A stretch of DNA of 64,000 bases, taken from assembly GCF_024498175.1 (NCBI RefSeq), contig NZ_CP101823.1:1240001-1304000 (forward strand), written 5' to 3'. The DNA is from Haloplanus salinarum. GTDB lineage: Archaea; Halobacteriota; Halobacteria; Halobacteriales; Haloferacaceae. This document shows positions 29,602-62,644 of this stretch, in pieces. The position numbers were made by a program, and so were the translations under genes. The notes under the pieces were generated by a model. That model was not told the origin of the DNA. It saw nothing but the letters and a program-made list of their open reading frames with translations, and made no database searches. How positions within the stretch are numbered: position 1 is the stretch's first letter; the number at the start of each line of letters is the position of its first letter.

Positions 29602-30459
29602 TTAGTCAGCAGTCCCCTCCTGATCCGGTTCATATTCTTTGAGTTGACCGGGAACCGCAGGAAGAGTTCCATCCCGTCTAAACGTCTGTGACCCAGCATA
29701 CAGCGCAATGATCGACGCACAGAGCAGGTAGAATACGGTGTCTCCTGACATGATGTCAAACACGGCGGGCACGTCTCCGGCAGCGTCCCCGATACGGGGC
29801 ATATTGTGCGAAGCGTGCGCGATCATCACGACTGGCAACGCTCCATCAGTGTTGTTGTACAGCCATCCAAGGATGACTGATATCGCTACTAGATTCACCA
29901 TGTACTCCCAGAAAACGGTGAAGTCGCCGGTTCCAGTGAGTATCATTGGGACGTGCCAAAGGCCCCAGACGACGCCAATCGCCAGACTCGCGTGGAGCGC
30001 ACTGAATCGCCGCTGGAGACGGGGTTGCAGGAAGCCACGCCAGCCCAACTCCTCTAATGCACCAGCCAGAAACAGTGTGACACCGAACGTGATGATGTAA
30101 TCACTGATCCGAGCGTAGGGAACCGCCACGTCGCTGCCGAGGAGCACCGCAACTATCGTCTCGGCTTCGGTTCCGAGCATCATGATAGCGATACCGATGA
30201 GATACCAGTGAATGCCAGCCCGCAGGTTGCGAAGTTGTCCAAGCCAGTCTCGAACGCTTTCGTCGAGCAGCCAGACCGTCACCCCCGCAGTAATCATCGG
30301 AGCCCACGCATAGACCATCACTCCCAGTGTCGGAATAGTAGTTCCAAACATAGAATAGAGGCCCGCGAAGACGAGTCCCGAATAGAGTGTAAGTACGGTT
30401 AGGAATGTTCCAATCGGCCAGTGGGATGCTCTGCGTCGGAGGCTGTCAACGATATTCAT
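29602..30459 (-). CDS. CPBP-family intramembrane metalloprotease, second copy
   Basis: 285 residues from ATG 30459 (MNIVDSLRRRASHWP); GTG 30468 is an alternative. Eight or so helices with the family blocks GALEELGWRGFLQPRLQRR (about 145), VVWGLWHVPMIL (about 175) and MIAHASHNMPR (about 230). The metal-binding Glu-Glu and His residues are all present. It shares the block order of the copy at 6035-6922 but little else, so it is an old paralogue. Role unknown. Confidence 0.82.
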   Translation of the reverse strand: MNIVDSLRRRASHWPIGTFLTVLTLYSGLVFAGLYSMFGTTIPTLGVMVYAWAPMITAGVTVWLLDESVRDWLGQLRNLRAGIHWYLIGIAIMMLGTEAETIVAVLLGSDVAVPYARISDYIITFGVTLFLAGALEELGWRGFLQPRLQRRFSALHASLAIGVVWGLWHVPMILTGTGDFTVFWEYMVNLVAISVILGWLYNNTDGALPVVMIAHASHNMPRIGDAAGDVPAVFDIMSGDTVFYLLCASIIALYAGSQTFRRDGTLPAVPGQLKEYEPDQEGTAD

Positions 30460-30468
30460 TTTTCTCAC

Positions 30469-30840
30469 TCAATACACTCTGTCGGACGGCCAAGCGTTGG
30501 AAGCGAACATTTCTGAGCTGTCACTTGATATGTGTCTTTCATAAGCGGGCTAATTGATGATGAGTAATAAATGCGAAGTAGGCGTTTCACTTTCTGAAAC
30601 ACGATATATCACAGACCCTAACGAGAGGTTCCCACAGCGCATATATCGTGTGTATGTTTATTTTGTCGGCTAATGCAGATCCAATTTTAGAGAAATTATA
30701 CAGTTCTCATACTGCATCCACGCTCTGTATCTCGCAGCATCCACCTGACAACTTCTGTATAGGTGATACCGGCGTCCGCAAAATGAAGGGCACATATTCA
30801 GCGGATACTGACGATGAGTTGGCAGAGGAACTCATACTGT
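30469..30840. other. Intergenic region, nothing recognised
   Basis: AT-rich 5' region of the CPBP gene, with no recognisable feature. A plus-strand open frame at 30648-30908 has poor protein character and runs through the hairpin that follows. Confidence 0.4.
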
Positions 30841-30908
30841 TTATTGTAAGTCGTTACCGGTGGTTCGCCGGACCACGCTGGCGAACCACCGGTAAACAGT
30901 TACAATAA
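30841..30908. repeat. Long imperfect hairpin
   Basis: Arms of 29 bases, TTATTGTAA.. ..TTACCGGTGGTTCGCC and its complement, match except for a 4-base block, around a 10-base centre GGACCACGCT. It lies 50 bp downstream of the PIN gene stop. Too long for an ordinary archaeal terminator; possible MITE, attachment-like site or structured RNA. Confidence 0.65.
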
Positions 30909-30957
30909 TCCGTATCAGGCGGAACGGATTCGACGTGTGAACTGATCCACTATTCCG

Positions 30958-31374
30958 TCAGCGTGTGTCGAACGAGTCGATCACGTCACTCGTCGAGTAC
31001 CGCTCGACTACGTCCTGTTCGTCGAAGTCGGAATCGTCACTCCAGATGGCCGCACCACTGGCGATCGCACAAGCTAGGTAGAGCACGTCGCTGGGGTCGA
31101 TGTCGCCGATCGCTGCGTTCGCCTCCTCAATAGCCGGATGGAACTCGTCGACGGGAACGACCTCGATGTACTGGAACAGGAGGTCGACGAACTGCGCTAC
31201 TCGGTTCGGGTCCATCCCTGATTTCTCCGCGATCAACTCCTCGTAGTTCTCGATTTCGTCGTGGACGAACGCGGGAGTCAGGAGGTCCGGGTCTAGCGTG
31301 ACGATGAGTTCCCACGTTTTCGAATCGGCGACGAGCGCGGAGATGACGACGTTGGCATCGACGACCAGCTTCAT
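30958..31374 (-). CDS. PIN-domain toxin (VapC-like)
   Basis: 138 residues. KLVVDANVVISALVADS carries the first PIN acid (D6), HDEIENYEELI holds a second, DIDPSDVLYLACAIASGAAI the third and WSDDSDFDE the fourth; this is the complete Mg2+ site of a PIN ribonuclease. The upstream gene, 9 bp away on the same strand, is a broken antitoxin-like gene. Known VapC proteins cleave tRNA or rRNA when freed from the antitoxin. A ~250-bp repeat starts 55 bp upstream of the antitoxin. Confidence 0.82.
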   Translation of the reverse strand: MKLVVDANVVISALVADSKTWELIVTLDPDLLTPAFVHDEIENYEELIAEKSGMDPNRVAQFVDLLFQYIEVVPVDEFHPAIEEANAAIGDIDPSDVLYLACAIASGAAIWSDDSDFDEQDVVERYSTSDVIDSFDTR

Positions 31375-31383
31375 TCGTCGGCT

Positions 31384-31613
31384 CTACGTCGGTTCCTCGT
31401 CAACACGCTTCCGCCCGCTCTCGTTGATTTTGTCGGCGATATCCCGAACGTCGCTCTCGGTGAGGTCGCTTTCGCTGGTAAGTTCGTCCATCACTTCGAG
31501 CGCGTCGATCTTTTTTCGATAGCCTGCCGCGTGACCTCGCTCCAGTTGATCTCCGGATGCTTCTCCATTCGCTCTTTGAGGTTGTCGTCGACATTGACCG
31601 TGATCGAAGGCAT
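31384..31613 (-). pseudogene. VapB-like antitoxin with a frameshift in an A-run
   Basis: From ATG 31613 the frame reads MPSITVNVDDNLKERMEKHP, EINWSEVTRQAIEKR, a ribbon-helix-helix antitoxin N-terminus, but stops at 31491. With one extra A in the six-A run near 31515 it would continue as KIDALEVMDELTSESDLTE and so on through RVDEEPT to a stop at 31384, giving about 76 residues that reach the toxin gene. A 1-base loss, a sequencing error or programmed slippage are all possible. Confidence 0.7.
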
Positions 31614-31667
31614 ACAGGATACTATGAAATCACAGAATACTGTGTCTTTTGATGTGTCCAGCAACCC

Positions 31668-31920
31668 TCGATTTCGACCGTTTCAGGCCCAGCAAGGGAA
31701 ATCGTTCAGCGACCGAACGAGCGCCTGCAGCGCCCATCGCCGATTTCTCGGTCGTAATCGCACGACAACGACGGGGCAATCGTCGATGTCATCGGCTCTG
31801 AACGCACTGCCGTTGATTTCGTTCAGCTACTGAACGATTCCGACCGATGGCGGTTTCATCCCGTGGTTCGCTACATCTATACCGCGATCAAATGGATCTA
31901 ATCATTGGGCCATTGAACGT
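31668..31920 (+). repeat. PIN-associated repeat, copy A
   Basis: About 250 bp similar to copies B (58509) and C (60091) in the same orientation, from TCGATTTCGACCGTTTCAGG to CTAATCATTGGG. The core GCGCCTGCAGCGCCCATCGCC is identical in all three. It contains two palindromes, at 31703-31719 and 31820-31836. It lies between gdhA and the PIN module. Confidence 0.8.
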
Positions 31921-31978: not shown

Positions 31979-33274
31979 TCAGTCCGATCGTTCGACGTCG
32001 GCCCTCGCGACGTTGCCCCGGTACGCCTCTGCCTGTAACACGCTCTCGACGGCGCGCGTGTACGCCGCTTCTCGCCAGGTGCGTGTCGTCTCGGACGCCA
32101 CTTTGATCTCTCGAAGGTCGGCGAATGCTTCTCGGAGCTGTGTCGCCAACTTCTCACGCACCCGCTCTTCCGTCCAGTACTCGTTCGTCGTGTTCTGCAC
32201 CCACTCGAAGTACGACGCCGTGACCCCGCCGGCGTTGGCGAGGATATCCGGGATCACCGGAATCCCCCGCTCGGTGAGGTGTTCATCCGCCCGCGACGTC
32301 GTCGGGCCGTTGGCCATCTCCAGCACTGCGTCCGCCTGCACCTCCGCCATGTTGGCCTCGGTGATCTGATTCTCGATGGCGGCCGGAATCAGCACGTCGA
32401 CGTCGAGTGTCAACAGGTCGGCGTTGGTAATCTCCGCCGCACCGAACTCGAATAGGTCGTCGCTCGACTCGTACGCATCGAACAGCGCCGGCATGTCGAT
32501 GCCGCTCGAATCGTGGATTCCGCCGTCGACGTTGCTGACCGCAACGACATCGTATCCGCGCTCGTGAAGGAACTTCGCGAGGTAGGAGCCGACGTTTCCG
32601 AACCCCTGAACCGCGACGGTCGTTCTCTCCCGTGTCATCTCCACCTCGTCCACGAACTCGTCGAGGATCACTGCCCCACCGAGGGAGGTCGCGTATTCGC
32701 GGCCCTCGCTCCCGCCGAGTTCGACCGGTTTCCCTGTGATCACGCCCGGTGCCTGCCCCCCGGTGATCGACTCGTATTCGTCCCGCATCCACGCCATGAT
32801 CCGGCCGTCGGTGTTCACGTCGGGCGCGGGGATGTCCGTCTCCGGGCCGATGTTCCGGTGGTACTCGTTGATGTAGGCTCGCGAAAGGCGCTCCAGTTCG
32901 CCCTCCGAGAGCCGCGACGGGTCGACCTGTATCCCCCCTTTGGCGCCGCCGAACGGGATGTTGGCGACGGCACACTTCAGCGACATCAGGAAGGCCAGTT
33001 CGTCGACTTCGTCGGCGTTCACCGACGGGTGGTACCGAATCCCACCTTTCGTCGGTCCACGGGCGGTGTTGTACTGGATCCGGAAGGAGGGGAACACCTC
33101 CACGCTCCCGTCGTCCATCCGTATCGGGATGTTCACGTTGATACGACGTTTGGGCTGTCGGAGGAGGTCCAGTTCCCGATCGGCGAGCCGTCCGACTTTC
33201 GATACACGATCCAGTTCGGTCGTACACACGTCACAGAGCGTTTCCGTCCCAGTGGGTCCGAGGTCAGTATCCAT
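31979..33274 (-). CDS. gdhA: Glutamate dehydrogenase (Glu/Leu/Phe/Val family)
   Basis: 431 residues. The catalytic lysine lies in FGGAKGGI (about 110), the substrate-binding lysine in KCAVANIPFGG, the conserved Asp in DIPAPDVNTD, and the dinucleotide fold is VAVQGFGNVGSYLAKFL (about 225). It converts glutamate to 2-oxoglutarate and ammonia with NAD(P)+ in the cytoplasm, linking nitrogen assimilation and energy metabolism. Full length for the family. Coenzyme preference cannot be decided by eye. Single gene with its own promoter region divergent from nothing; USP follows 144 bp upstream on the same strand. Confidence 0.92.
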   Translation of the reverse strand: MDTDLGPTGTETLCDVCTTELDRVSKVGRLADRELDLLRQPKRRINVNIPIRMDDGSVEVFPSFRIQYNTARGPTKGGIRYHPSVNADEVDELAFLMSLKCAVANIPFGGAKGGIQVDPSRLSEGELERLSRAYINEYHRNIGPETDIPAPDVNTDGRIMAWMRDEYESITGGQAPGVITGKPVELGGSEGREYATSLGGAVILDEFVDEVEMTRERTTVAVQGFGNVGSYLAKFLHERGYDVVAVSNVDGGIHDSSGIDMPALFDAYESSDDLFEFGAAEITNADLLTLDVDVLIPAAIENQITEANMAEVQADAVLEMANGPTTSRADEHLTERGIPVIPDILANAGGVTASYFEWVQNTTNEYWTEERVREKLATQLREAFADLREIKVASETTRTWREAAYTRAVESVLQAEAYRGNVARADVERSD

Positions 33275-57510: not shown

Positions 57511-58215
57511 TCATCCGTCGTCGACCGCGGCGTCGAAGAGAGCCGTAAACACCTTGGATTGAGCCGCCCGGAGGTGCTGGCTGAACGTCGGCTGAGCGAT
57601 TCCCAACGCGTCGGCACACTCTTGCGCCGCACTTTCGCGCGGCCACGCGAAGTAGCCGCTCAGATACGCCGTTCGAAGTACTTCGTACTGTTTCTCGGTA
57701 AGTCGGTCTGCGAGGATGGTGTGGACGCCCGATTTCGTTCGAACGGGTGGAGACTGGTCACGTTCTCTCTTGGCGAGAAACTCCGAGTCCGGATGGCGTG
57801 TCCGAAACGTCTCGACGACGGTTCGAACGGCGACGTGAGCTGGAACAGTTGCGACGACACGGCCGACGCCGCCCGCGGCCGAAACGTCACGAGTGATCGC
57901 TCCGGTATCGGCGAGCGTCGCGGTGACACACGGCCCAGAGACGACGAACTGGAAGAGATTGCCGTCGGGACCGTTCCTGACGAGACGAGCCTCTGCGATT
58001 GCGGATTCGCTCGCAGCCATGTCGAGGACGTCCTCCGGAGGCGTTTCACGGACGCTGAAGTATTGAAGCAGATCCCCATCCGCGCGATGGATCAACTCCT
58101 CGAGTCGGATGAGACAGTCGGTTTCGGCCGAGAGACGAACGAAAAAACAGTTTCTGTCCCGCACCTCCAATTCGATCTCCGTTATTGGAGTCTCGACGGG
58201 TTCCTGAACGGTCAT
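57511..58215 (-). CDS. Bat-type HTH_10 transcriptional regulator, second
   Basis: 234 residues. The C-terminal 60 residues are an HTH_10 domain: LTEKQYEVLRTAYLSGYFAW, then AQECADALGIAQPTFSQHLR (recognition helix) and AAQSKVFTALF. The first ~160 residues form the alpha/beta sensor domain usual for this family (VRDRNCFFVRLSAETDCLIR, LLQYFSVRETPPEDVLDM). It is encoded just upstream of the second hydrolase on the same strand (110 bp) and may regulate it. Confidence 0.83.
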   Translation of the reverse strand: MTVQEPVETPITEIELEVRDRNCFFVRLSAETDCLIRLEELIHRADGDLLQYFSVRETPPEDVLDMAASESAIAEARLVRNGPDGNLFQFVVSGPCVTATLADTGAITRDVSAAGGVGRVVATVPAHVAVRTVVETFRTRHPDSEFLAKRERDQSPPVRTKSGVHTILADRLTEKQYEVLRTAYLSGYFAWPRESAAQECADALGIAQPTFSQHLRAAQSKVFTALFDAAVDDG

Positions 58216-58508
58216 AGCCGGCCTTCAATGACCGCGTTGATAGGCATTCGTCTGTCGTGTGTCTGTTTCGAACACTCGTTCGCCGCCCATACGGAACCGA
58301 CGGGAACGGATGGAACCGTCGTGGCTCCCCTTGTGCACTGCACCACCGAACGACGTAGCCAAAACGGGATCGGTACACGTAGGCCGTCACTTCGGTGACA
58401 GTGTTCTCCTCGTCGGACGGGGACTTTTCTACCGCGGATCCTGATGGGATTGGCTCGAAACTCGTGTCCGCGGATGAGAACTATAGGATGAAACTGCTGC
58501 TCTCAGAA
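58216..58508. other. Upstream region of the Bat-type regulator, nothing recognised
   Basis: About 290 bp with no open frame of protein character and no recognisable RNA. It ends at repeat copy B. Confidence 0.4.
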
Positions 58509-58790
58509 CGCCGATTTCCCTCGTGTCAGGGCCAGCAAGGGACTTCGTTCACCGCGTGAACGAGCGCCTGCAGCGCCCATCGCCGATTTTTCGGTCGTAA
58601 TCGCACGACTACGATGGGGTGATCGTCGATATCACCCTCTCGGAGTGCAATGTCATTAATTTCGTTCGGTCACCGAACGGTTCCGACCGACGGAGGTTTC
58701 GTCCTCTGGTTCGCCGTCTCTACGGCGTGGCGCATGGCTGCTAATCATTGGGTCGTTGACCATCACTCGGTCACGAGCAACTGGGTCCCA
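58509..58790 (+). repeat. PIN-associated repeat, copy B
   Basis: 282 bp, directly repeated as copy C at 60091-60370 with the right-hand 75 bp nearly identical (GCGCATGGCTGCTAATCATT to CTGGGTCCCA). It carries two palindromes, CGTTCAC-CGC-GTGAACG (58546-58562) and CGTTCGG-TCA-CCGAACG (58663-58679). It starts the PIN module on its 3' side (90 bp to the toxin stop). Confidence 0.82.
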
Positions 58791-58880
58791 ACAAAATCGG
58801 GCGGTGCTGGTCACGGGAACGCGACACTACATAATTAATGGAAACGAGTATAGAACACGCTCGGTCGTCCTGCCCTCGAA

Positions 58881-59426
58881 TCAGTCGAACTCGGGGACGA
58901 AATCCTCTGCGAGTTCGGCAGCGAGTTCACTACCGGTGAGCCAGGTGATTTGCTCGTCGTCGAATCCGTAGTTCGGAAGTAGCGATTCGGCTGCTTCGCC
59001 GAGTGGGATATCGTTCGTGACGACGAGAACTCGATCGCCAGCCCCATCAAGCAGGGTTTCGAGCGCCAGTCCCACGATTTCCGTATCCGCTTTCTCGACG
59101 ATGTCCTCCGGGCGATCGCTGGAGTTCGAAATGAAGCTCCGTGCCCGATCCATCACCGTCGAGACGTCCGAGTCCGAATAGGCCGGACTTTCGGTAACCT
59201 TCATCCACCCCTCCTGTACTGCCTCGTCGACAGGAGACCGATCAGGAGAATACGCGTCGAGTGCGGTATCACCAGTCACCTCGGCATATACTTGTGGTGA
59301 GATCCGGAAGATCGCATCACGCTGACGGGCCTCGCGGGCGAGTGCTTGGAACCGCGTACCGTCACGTCGACCGCAACTGATGAGAACCGACGAATCGACG
59401 AAGATGACCTCTCCGTCGCGTTCCAT
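58881..59426 (-). CDS. PIN-domain protein, second toxin-like gene
   Basis: 181 residues. VIFVDSSVLISCGRRDGTRF has the first acid (D11), RISPQVYAEVTGDTALDAY a second, EKADTEIVGLALETLLDGA the third and VVTNDIPLGEAAESLL the last; the layout is PIN, though larger than usual VapC. Its start is 6 bp after the stop of the winged-helix gene, so they form one operon in which the HTH protein is the probable antitoxin or repressor. The module lies between direct repeats B and C. Confidence 0.75.
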   Translation of the reverse strand: MERDGEVIFVDSSVLISCGRRDGTRFQALAREARQRDAIFRISPQVYAEVTGDTALDAYSPDRSPVDEAVQEGWMKVTESPAYSDSDVSTVMDRARSFISNSSDRPEDIVEKADTEIVGLALETLLDGAGDRVLVVTNDIPLGEAAESLLPNYGFDDEQITWLTGSELAAELAEDFVPEFD

Positions 59427-59432
59427 ACCGGA

Positions 59433-59948
59433 TCAGTCCTCGACGACGGGGCGGAGTGCATCCAGAATGACGCCTGCTTCCAAGGGAGAGAGTTCCTGTT
59501 CACGAGCCATAATCCGGTGTGTGACGGACCCGTCGGCGTATTCACGAGCGTAGTCGAGTGCGACGGCGAGCCCGTCGAGCCCGTGGCGGTCGATGTACGT
59601 ATCGACGTCGTCATCCCGCATTCGACGGGCGATCGCCTCGACTAGCTCCGGCGTGATTCGTCGTTCGGCATCGCCCGCGACCAGTTGGAGATCGATCTCG
59701 TGAGCGGTATATTCCGCCGGCCGTCCGTCATTCGACTGTTCGACGAAGCCCGCGGCTTCGAGGTCGCCGACGTATTCGTAGACCGTTCGCTGTGGGAGAT
59801 CGAGCGTCCCGACGACATCCTGGATCGTCGTCGCCGGATGATGGTCGATATAGGTGTAGATCCACGCTTTTCGGGGATTTCCGAGGAGCGCGAACACCTC
59901 GCCACCAGTATCGAGTGGGGTATCCCAGTTTGCTTCTCTCGTCGCCAT
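59433..59948 (-). CDS. Winged-helix partner of the PIN protein
   Basis: 171 residues from ATG 59948 (MATREANWDTPLDTGGEVFA). Winged helix: LGNPRKAWIYTYIDHHPATT, IQDVVGTLDLPQRTVYEYVG (recognition helix RTVYEYVGDLEAAGFV), then a wing and an acidic helical C-terminal part MRDDDVDTYIDRHGLDGLAV that could bind the toxin. It is placed like an antitoxin gene. The repeat copy C begins 143 bp upstream. Not similar to the ribbon-helix-helix antitoxin of the first module. Confidence 0.72.
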   Translation of the reverse strand: MATREANWDTPLDTGGEVFALLGNPRKAWIYTYIDHHPATTIQDVVGTLDLPQRTVYEYVGDLEAAGFVEQSNDGRPAEYTAHEIDLQLVAGDAERRITPELVEAIARRMRDDDVDTYIDRHGLDGLAVALDYAREYADGSVTHRIMAREQELSPLEAGVILDALRPVVED

Positions 59949-60090
59949 CAGTAGTAGCAAATTGCACGCAAATTGCAATAAGTCTTGTTGAGATGGAGTC
60001 GTCACTGACATCAGGTTTCTACGAGCGCGTGGAGGGCTATCGTACGACTGTGACATCTTCCCGGCAGTGATTTTCAGTGTTCAGCGCTCT

Positions 60091-60370
60091 TCGATTTCGA
60101 CCGTTTCAGGCACAGCAAGGGACTTCGTTCGTCAAGCGTACAAGCGCCTGCAGCGCCCATCGCCGATTTTTCGTTCGTGATCGCACGATAGCGACGGGGT
60201 GAACATTGGTGTCGTCGTCTCTGTGTGCACTGCCGTTAATTTCGTTCAGTCACTGAACGATTCCGATCGGCGGTTATTTTCTCCTCTGGTTCGCTGCCTT
60301 TACCGCGTGGCGCATGGCTGCTAATCATTGGGTCGTTGACCATCACTCGGTCACGAGCAACTGGGTCCCA
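60091..60370 (+). repeat. PIN-associated repeat, copy C
   Basis: 280 bp in the same orientation as B. It starts like copy A (TCGATTTCGACCGTTTCAGG) and ends like copy B (CTGGGTCCCAGCA), so it shows the full extent of the repeat. Palindrome CGTTCAG-TCA-CTGAACG at 60243-60259. It lies upstream of the winged-helix/PIN operon. Confidence 0.82.
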
Positions 60371-60716
60371 GCAACTTCGAGAACTGGGAATGGTTGGTAA
60401 CGGAACTCCATACTGTCGCCGAGTGGTGGTTTCGACGTAGGGGATCGGAGATACTTGGGATAGTACCTGAAAACGAGGTACCCCAGTCGTAGTTCGATCG
60501 TCGGATCAACTGGCAGTTGTTAATTACGGGTGTTCCACATTCAGAAACTACTAGTAGACTCGACGCTGGCTGTTCCTGCCAGGAGAATCACCAGATAGCA
60601 GTAGATCTGGACGATATGAAAATGAACCGATGCCCGTGCTGAATCCACTCTTTCTGGGTGTTTTAGAGGCGCTATTACCTACTAAGCATGGCATTACTGA
60701 ATTCGCGTAGAATTCG
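60371..60716. other. Intergenic region, nothing recognised
   Basis: 350 bp downstream of repeat copy C with no gene, RNA or repeat I can support. The short minus-strand frame 60551-60781 is not protein-like. Confidence 0.4.
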
Positions 60717-60946
60717 TTACGGGTTGTGTTGGGAGTCTTCGCCGGCTGTGATTCGCGTTCCCCGGTTCGGGGACAGGACACACAGCCGCCAGAAAATCAA
60801 TCGCTCAGTGAGTACGCACTCGGCCAGGCCGCGCCACGCTGCCACACTGGCCAACCGGTCGGGAATTGACAGCCAGATAGCATCGACACCTAGCTCTGAC
60901 AGTCGTGTCGGACCCGCTCGTCACCGATTGGTGAACTCGACGCTGT
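60717..60946 (-). pseudogene. Gene fragment cut by the IS200/IS605 element
   Basis: A minus-strand frame reads GPTRLSELGVDAIWLSIPDR, LASVAAWRGLAECVLTERLI, FWRLCVLSPNRGTRITAGED and ends in a stop at 60717. It has no start codon before an upstream stop near 60930, close to the IS right end. The composition is protein-like but I do not recognise the family. Confidence 0.35.
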
Positions 60947-60996
60947 TGACATCCTCCCCGCGCTAAAGGGCGAGGATTCCTCTGTTGGGGGTTCGG

Positions 60997-62263
<1,267 letters not shown>

Positions 62264-62267
<4 letters not shown>

Positions 62268-62644
62268 GCGTCCCCACCTTCCTGTTCAGCGATGTAGCGT
62301 TCGACAGCTCCCTTCGAGGCGCTTCCCGCTGTTCCGACGTAGTACGAGCCAGTCCACTTCACGCGGTCGGCGTAGCGTTGGTTGTACTTCCGCGCGGAGA
62401 TGCCCTTGACCCAGTTGACGATGAGGGACGGGGCGTTCTTGGGTGGACTCCCGATGACCAAGTGTACGTGGTCGGGCATGACCTCCGACTCGGCCAGTTC
62501 GAGGTCTTTGTCTTCACAGATTTTCGCGAAGATGGTTTCGAGACGTTCCTTCGTCTTCCCCGTCAGGTTCGAACATCGGTATTTTGGCACGAACACTATG
62601 TGGTAGTAGAGTTCGTATTTCGCGTGACGGGTACTCTTCACCAT
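62264..62644 (-). CDS. tnpA: IS200-type TnpA, Y1 HUH transposase
   Basis: 126 residues, full length. HUH motif [11 protein letters not shown] (about 59-69) and the catalytic tyrosine in the helix [18 protein letters not shown] (about 118; the flanking YYVGT is the usual preceding segment). It cuts single-stranded DNA at the element ends and pastes it after TTAC. It could also move the non-autonomous element at 14348, which has the same left-end geometry. Confidence 0.9.

Follow-up and report, generated by a model that had tools for sequence, protein, structure and literature searches.

The window analysed here is a 64,000-nucleotide stretch of the genome of the haloarchaeon Haloplanus salinarum (NZ_CP101823.1, positions 1,240,001 to 1,304,000 of the forward strand). 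It contains three related repeats, A, B and C, beside gene pairs of toxin-antitoxin (TA) type. Copies B (58512-58799) and C (60092-60379) are direct repeats with 83% identity over 288 nt, ungapped, and copy A (31669-31916) is 79.6% identical to B (E 5e-57) and 78.9% identical to C (E 4e-58). As the first-pass annotation had reported, the three copies share one strand (+), and B and C bracket a two-gene unit made of a PIN-like open reading frame (ORF) at 58881-59426 and a winged helix-turn-helix (wHTH) ORF at 59433-60056, both on the minus strand. A and C each lie directly upstream of the antitoxin-type gene of their own module. All three copies in the window are real, but the genome total is seven rather than three, on both strands of a single 3.45-Mb contig. 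Within the genus, copies were found in 6 of 12 genomes, with a maximum of 13 matches in one genome. The repeats look like integrase attachment sites at the end of tRNA-Arg, so that the TA pair is probably a small mobile cassette.

The wHTH protein (207 aa, or 171 aa if a later start is used) was assigned by Pfam to TrmB-like and DUF7437 families, which bears out the winged-helix half of the module proposed earlier. The 181-aa PIN-like protein gave no Pfam match at E≤0.001 and is PIN-like only by its predicted fold (mean confidence score pLDDT 86), a weak resemblance for which the best PDB match was a VapC (template-modelling score 0.52/0.65, E 0.017; none reached E 0.001).

Module A contains a PIN_2 toxin-type gene (30958-31374, minus strand, 138 aa; PF10130, 1.6e-31) beside a ribbon-helix-helix (RHH) antitoxin gene (31380-31613, minus strand), as in VapBC-type systems, in which a PIN toxin adjoins a DNA-binding antitoxin. 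The RHH-PIN pair described earlier is thus present, with the qualification that its antitoxin gene is frameshifted after about 34 codons. A 99.4% identical relative in genome G005 also matches RHH in two pieces (sampled genomes and fetched loci carry G and L numbers; G000 is the genome of the window). An intact relative of the antitoxin scored 35.6 bits on the VapB model NF050799, below its cut-off of 60. A 71-aa reading at 31400-31615 was rejected as the antitoxin, with no family match and a frame other than that of the antitoxin. Another G000 site (1569.0 kb) has a TrkA-domain gene with a 76-aa relative of the antitoxin next to it. An inverted repeat with perfect 16-nt arms (30854-30895) is located beside the 3' end of the PIN gene.

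A composite site around a tRNA-Arg core

Alignment of complete and half copies with their flanks divided the repeat into a P arm of about 55 bp (query 15-70), a core (71-85) and a P' arm of about 215 bp (86 to about 300). The core is CCTGCAGCGCCCATC, which is the last 13 nt of tRNA-Arg(UCG) plus two nt. In copy A, P occupies 31669-31723 and the core plus two nt 31724-31738, with P' from 31739 (73.8 bits with the hidden Markov model); this copy is the right end of the RHH-PIN unit. Copy B has P at 58512-58566, core plus two nt at 58567-58581 and P' at 58582-58799, and forms the left end of a cassette of which copy C (P 60092-60146, core plus two nt 60147-60161, P' 60162-60379 and beyond) is the right end. 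Measured between the right edges of cores B and C, this cassette is 1580 bp long (58582-60161), and the wHTH-PIN pair makes up its only recognised genes. The homology noted earlier as a repeat of about 280 bp is real, but it consists of three parts with separate histories, and that of copy C runs further right, to at least 60420 (the query end) in several relatives. A search for a left-end core of module A in 30401-31000, allowing up to 5 mismatches, gave five chance-like matches only.

The half copies break at the core. Of the eight copies displayed that lack P, four lie behind an intact tRNA-Arg(UCG): those of G000, G001 and G011 adjoin it, and in G007 a 115-bp unit comes between. Two others follow P-core plus such a unit, and two have a different left side. 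Copies that stop at the core run on into other sequence, including variants that stand directly behind the tRNA in other genomes. In G005 the tRNA and six sites, in one orientation, lie within 65 kb. In G000 the tRNA is at 822.5 kb. The distance from it is 21 kb for one P site, 450-480 kb for A, B and C and 740 kb for two further sites; old sites thus appear to have moved. The unit is bounded by direct repeats identical to a tRNA 3' end, as in tRNA site-specific integration, and judged by its sequence the layout tRNA-core-P'...P-core-P'...P-core-downstream is the anatomy of serial integration.

A sequence model of P plus core (R1), built on 47 sites from 12 genomes and used with a cut-off of E≤0.001, matched 72 of the 170 family genomes, spread over 20 of 28 genera, and, at class level, 145 of 391 genomes in 45 of 86 genera; these counts include the 12 training genomes where sampled. 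Of the 22 fetched loci holding both a tRNA-Arg (UCG or CCG) and a site above 30 bits, 20 contain a site whose 13-nt core is identical to the end of the tRNA. These tRNA 3' ends vary by lineage, with five core variants (CCTGCAGCGCCCA, CCTCCAGCGCCCA, CCCTCAGCGCCCG, CCCGTCGCGCCCG and CCCGTCGGGTCCG), and on this comparison of sequences the core follows the tRNA of its host. All 38 sites above 30 bits lie downstream of tRNA-Arg on its strand. Weaker sites (6 of 106 overall, 5 of 45 in the sample) were excluded from the core-tRNA comparison. Some loci were fetched around the tRNA; co-presence is no statistic here, and identity and orientation are. A search of genome contigs with a 27-nt core pattern gave zero matches.

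Outside the genus, copy C found short matches alone, mostly P plus core. This pattern, like the separability of the parts at the tRNA core and the way the core follows the host tRNA, is at odds with a miniature inverted-repeat transposable element (MITE) or the end of an insertion sequence (IS), either of which would suit a many-copy repeat family and the IS200/IS605-type TnpA-TnpB pair found on the right side of copy C (60997-62644). We found no inverted repeats of at least 20 nt in 58000-61000 and rejected an IS or MITE identity in its simple form, whose probability we regard as close to nil. A regulatory or noncoding RNA element common to PIN modules is nearly as improbable. It would account for a conserved inverted repeat in P' and a TATA-like sequence in some P' variants; by our count, however, 7 of 25 copies have mismatches in this inverted repeat, and most sites are not beside these PIN genes. 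A noncoding RNA was rejected, since Rfam gave zero matches in the window and RNAalifold zero pairs in P plus core.

Several variants of the site were seen. In L049, L056, L079 and L072, P' variants show a TATA-like TTTATAAA or TTATAAAA some 45 nt beyond the core, and a promoter in them might be switched by integration. The same P arm occurs with CCCGTCG-type cores elsewhere in the family (L089, L093, L120, L121, L129, L130); in L089, L129 and L130 there is a tRNA-Arg(CCG) with a CCCGTCG-type end, the arm being kept and the core swapped. A second type of P, with a pre-core end like CAATGACCAGGG, is found in L103, L107 and L052, at distances of 16, 19 and 67 kb from the tRNA; it is accompanied by a related integrase or remnant and stands at the same tRNA-Arg core. 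A unit of 105-115 bp, which closes with another partial tRNA-Arg 3' end (GGTTCAAATCC or similar) and then the core, comes after tRNA-Arg(UCG) in several genera (L078, L082, L110, L111); it is also found inside two G007 sites (L044) and among the RHH-PIN matches listed (query about 18-198).

Genes beside the P arm

Integrase genes adjoin the attachment-type site in some units. A 336-aa tyrosine recombinase (PF00589, PF02899) at L049:12923-13933 begins 49 bp from P and is 45.0% identical over 99% of its length to the SNJ2 integrase and 44.6% identical to that of HHPV4. SNJ2 integrates at a tRNA; integrase, short core and tRNA target are alike, whereas the site here is upstream of the integrase start. 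According to the criterion for the SNJ2 integrase family in the review passages on it (a minimum of 30% identity across 60% of the protein; PMC8371274), the L049 integrase belongs to this family. At 17 fetched sites an integrase match was found 38-76 bp from P, and at 12 of these 46-51 bp (distances to the edge of the match). Among 40 further sites outside the family, 9 have the integrase next to P, 49-107 bp away; in the genus an integrase or remnant is beside P at 4 of 37 sites. The B-C cassette itself has no integrase. A decayed N-terminus of an SNJ2-type tyrosine integrase (58325-58462, minus strand, 46 aa, 43% identity) lies 50 bp left of the P of copy B, the related site L057 in G005 has a like remnant, and L058 has a truncated integrase ORF beside it.

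The integrase stands in the place that the antitoxin gene takes in other units. At 22 fetched sites, 28-69 bp separate P from an antitoxin-type gene; the wHTH gene of the B-C cassette starts 36 bp from the P of copy C, and the RHH match keeps a distance of 55-59 bp to P at 16 of 18 sites, and of 56-58 bp at all 9 such sites of the wider sample. In the genus, the nearest reference gene beside P was RHH at 11 sites, wHTH at 4, integrase or its remnant at the 4 mentioned above and another gene at 18. In the 40-site sample it was integrase at 9, RHH at 9 (all with PIN) and another gene at 22. This sample comprises other-family rows listed in the class search, taken in order, leaving out already fetched regions, same-family rows, one G342 row and one G399 row. 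Low-GC mobile genes escape the simple gene caller used, as the L049 integrase did, so that the 'other' neighbours are under-annotated.

The first-pass annotation had proposed a link of the repeat to PIN genes. A gene of either PIN family was found within 1 kb on the P side at 9 of 37 genus sites and on either side at 13 of 37 (37 of the 38 genus sites, with relatives of the two PIN proteins sought). The copies lie mostly away from PIN genes; a special link is not supported in the form proposed, and a more general cassette reading is favoured. Sites without PIN have integrase, Doc/Fic, DUF433-DUF5615, DUF7342 or transporter genes, and PIN genes are one kind of cargo among others.

The fetched loci contain 72 intervals of 0.3-12 kb that are bounded by consecutive sites or by a tRNA and a site; 29 of them are below 2.1 kb. 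By our reading of translations and families, 22 of these 29 hold TA or TA-like pairs: 6 RHH-PIN, 6 Doc/Fic (from translations, with Pfam confirmation for two), 2 DUF433-DUF5615, 4 wHTH-PIN (one of which, L122, also has an integrase match beside P) and 4 DUF7342 with a small partner. The fraction is not a class-wide rate, because close spacing of sites was part of the reason for choosing these loci, and several of them are closely related to one another. The other seven hold an integrase, a NUDIX protein, a histidine kinase, an HNH protein, no family over the cut-off (two intervals) or partly masked sequence (one). Long units in the genus include amino-acid permease, Usp and TrkA-domain genes.

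The small units recur. RHH-PIN cassettes with 920-954 bp between two sites were found in G156, G349, G214, G347 and G023 (G214 and G347 are near-identical and from the same genus). Like the B-C cassette, L040 (G005, 1572 bp), L044 (G007, 1689 bp, with an extra 107-bp unit) and L049 (G008, between two cores) hold this same wHTH-PIN pair. The right neighbour of this unit is nearly the same in G000 and G005 (99%) and different in G007 and G008. In Salinadaptatus halalkaliphilus there is a relative 45 bp after tRNA-Arg, and a P site follows further on. In L040 the wHTH frame is open through P (239 aa), and the reverse complement of the core contains an ATG; with the frame open across P and core, integration could change the N-terminus of the antitoxin.

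Probable accretion of cassettes and its alternatives

The repeats are, in our judgement, very probably tRNA-Arg attachment sites, behind which integrase-less TA cassettes would have accreted in tandem, with SNJ2-type integrases probably acting in trans to move them. A circular element whose attP has the form P-core-P' would recombine at the tRNA core and yield tRNA-core-P'...cargo...P-core-downstream, and every further integration at a core would add one unit. The first junction would then be tRNA-core-P', inner junctions P-core-P' (the repeat of about 280 bp) and the last P-core followed by unrelated sequence. Autonomous units would carry an SNJ2-type tyrosine integrase, its start usually about 50 bp from P, and the B-C unit and its relatives would be non-autonomous, with a TA operon in place of the integrase and its DNA-binding partner next to P. 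Integration of such cassettes, and perhaps excision, would probably depend on integrases supplied in trans, and the cassettes may be kept by TA addiction. Between the mobile or recombining cassette and the shared control element proposed earlier, attachment-type sites that bound the unit favour the cassette, and a control element is not needed.

Comparison of flanks gave two partial exchanges. Copy B and the G005 site L057 share their left flank (98%) and P (100%) and differ on the right (48%), and copy C and L043_17882 of G007 share their right flank (99%) and differ on the left (51%); as sequence comparisons, both switches fit exchange at or near the core. The RHH-PIN pair of G003 is 88.8% identical to a copy in another family and at most 82.7% identical to copies of its own genus, the other four of which are 86-99% alike (a comparison of pair identities, made without a host marker tree).

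A number of observations weigh against accretion of mobile cassettes. The P' of copy C is 79% identical to that of L043_17882 despite the 99% identical right flank; P' does not track the right flank cleanly, so that homologous recombination within P' has also occurred. In a weak test on 25 copies, identities of left flank and P correlated at r=0.19 (p=0.013), of right flank and P' at r=0.13 (p=0.076) and of right flank and P at r=0.12 (p=0.11). The flank comparisons gave only cases with a shared left or a shared right side and no exact pair of empty and occupied sites, and no excised circle was found. None of the integrase matches in the genome of the window is beside a site, the nearest being a 95-aa fragment about 20 kb from copy C, and the available flanks of two relatives of the site-linked integrase in this genome gave no significant P match (best E 0.054). 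Among the 44 named loci of PIN-like relatives, 36 had no match to the model at E≤0.01 in the available flanks and 8 matched, three over most of P and five on the core side only. Of the 81 near-complete RHH-PIN matches among those listed, 29 reach P and 52 stop at the start of the antitoxin; this pair therefore lives outside cassettes too. In module A the antitoxin is broken and the PIN gene open.

Mosaic breakpoints inside P', the weak correlations and the scatter of G000 copies hundreds of kb from the tRNA would also suit homologous recombination between dispersed repeats, which would shuffle units while the repeats stay passive. Half copies stop at the core, the core tracks the host tRNA and integrases stand at P, all of which argue against this as the sole process, and we consider it improbable. 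Tandem accretion leaves room for homologous recombination to have dispersed old sites.

The main rival for individual units is decay. Tandem accretion of integrative and conjugative elements and of integrative and mobilizable elements at tRNA genes is known in bacteria, as are cis-mobilizable elements (CIMEs), and passages of the same paper give accretion plus decay as the route to tandem islands (PMC5704250). The units could accordingly be remains of a larger provirus or plasmid at tRNA-Arg, with the TA pair beside attR as the last survivor, and no cassette of about 1-1.6 kb would move. The integrase remnants beside B and L057, the truncated ORF beside L058 and larger units of 3-11 kb in the same arrays are in its favour. 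The B-C unit itself, with both bounds kept, integration genes absent and two recognised genes only, is built like a CIME, and may or may not derive from decay of a larger element. However, the same minimal unit with the same geometry occurs in distant genera and different contexts (the five RHH-PIN loci of 920-954 bp, and the steady RHH spacing from P given above), and independent decay should not converge on it; recurrent minimal units speak for cassettes, and we hold decay as the general explanation to be rather unlikely.

As far as CIMEs are described in the passages of PMC5704250, they resemble our units in attL- and attR-type bounds and in integrase-less units stacked at a tRNA 3' end beside integrase-bearing ones. 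They differ in that many units here are about 1-2 kb with mostly a TA-like pair, and that the same unit recurs across genera, with an SNJ2-type integrase and in an archaeal host. Integration of SNJ2 type by betapleolipovirus integrases is established in haloarchaea, with a 13-bp SNJ2 core according to the review passages (PMC8371274, PMC13107129). A search of the open-licence PMC literature (titles, abstract starts and passages) found no description of these repeats, TA cassettes or arrays. With accretion and SNJ2 integration known and these cassettes not found in the literature, we regard the system as a new variation on a known theme.

Integron arrays hold many TA cassettes. The likeness extends to tandem, co-oriented small cassettes with one site each and a tyrosine recombinase, as integrons are described in passages of PMC9668308. 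The anchor here is a tRNA 3' end instead of an attI beside an integron integrase, as the sites are downstream of tRNA-Arg in all 22 loci that hold both, and integrases lie within units. RNAalifold gave no consensus hairpin for P plus core, and the site-linked integrase, which is SNJ2-like, scored 50.9 bits on NF040815 (cut-off 220). The main text of the archaeal integron paper, as searched for these words, contains neither 'Halobact' nor 'haloarchaea' (PMC9668308). We put forward tentatively, as a possibility we would not yet favour, a haloarchaeal integron-like system in which SNJ2-type integrases collect mobile integrase-less cassettes of about 1 kb, mostly TA, in tandem behind tRNA-Arg, at a P-core site with a core that follows the host tRNA, and move them in trans; the antitoxin protein may, as a guess, act as directionality factor at P.

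If correct, this would explain the spread of small TA pairs and other cargo among haloarchaea without a recombinase of their own. The P arm followed by the host tRNA-Arg 3' end gives a simple rule to find sites, which 145 of the 391 class genomes match, and trans-mobilisation is testable, as this integrase family has already been worked on in haloarchaeal hosts.

Searches of replicons gave the following. Viral contigs searched with the integrase, PIN and two P-core patterns yielded no locus, the reach being limited to close relatives or exact matches. No significant P match was present in the first 2.2-2.6 kb of SNJ2, HHPV4 and HRPV9, stretches that may lack attP. Copy C had no plasmid match; 64 plasmid records matched genes of the B-C unit, and in none of them was 80% of the unit covered. 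A 431-aa ORF (31979-33274, minus strand), which we take to be a glutamate dehydrogenase, lies on the right side of copy A.
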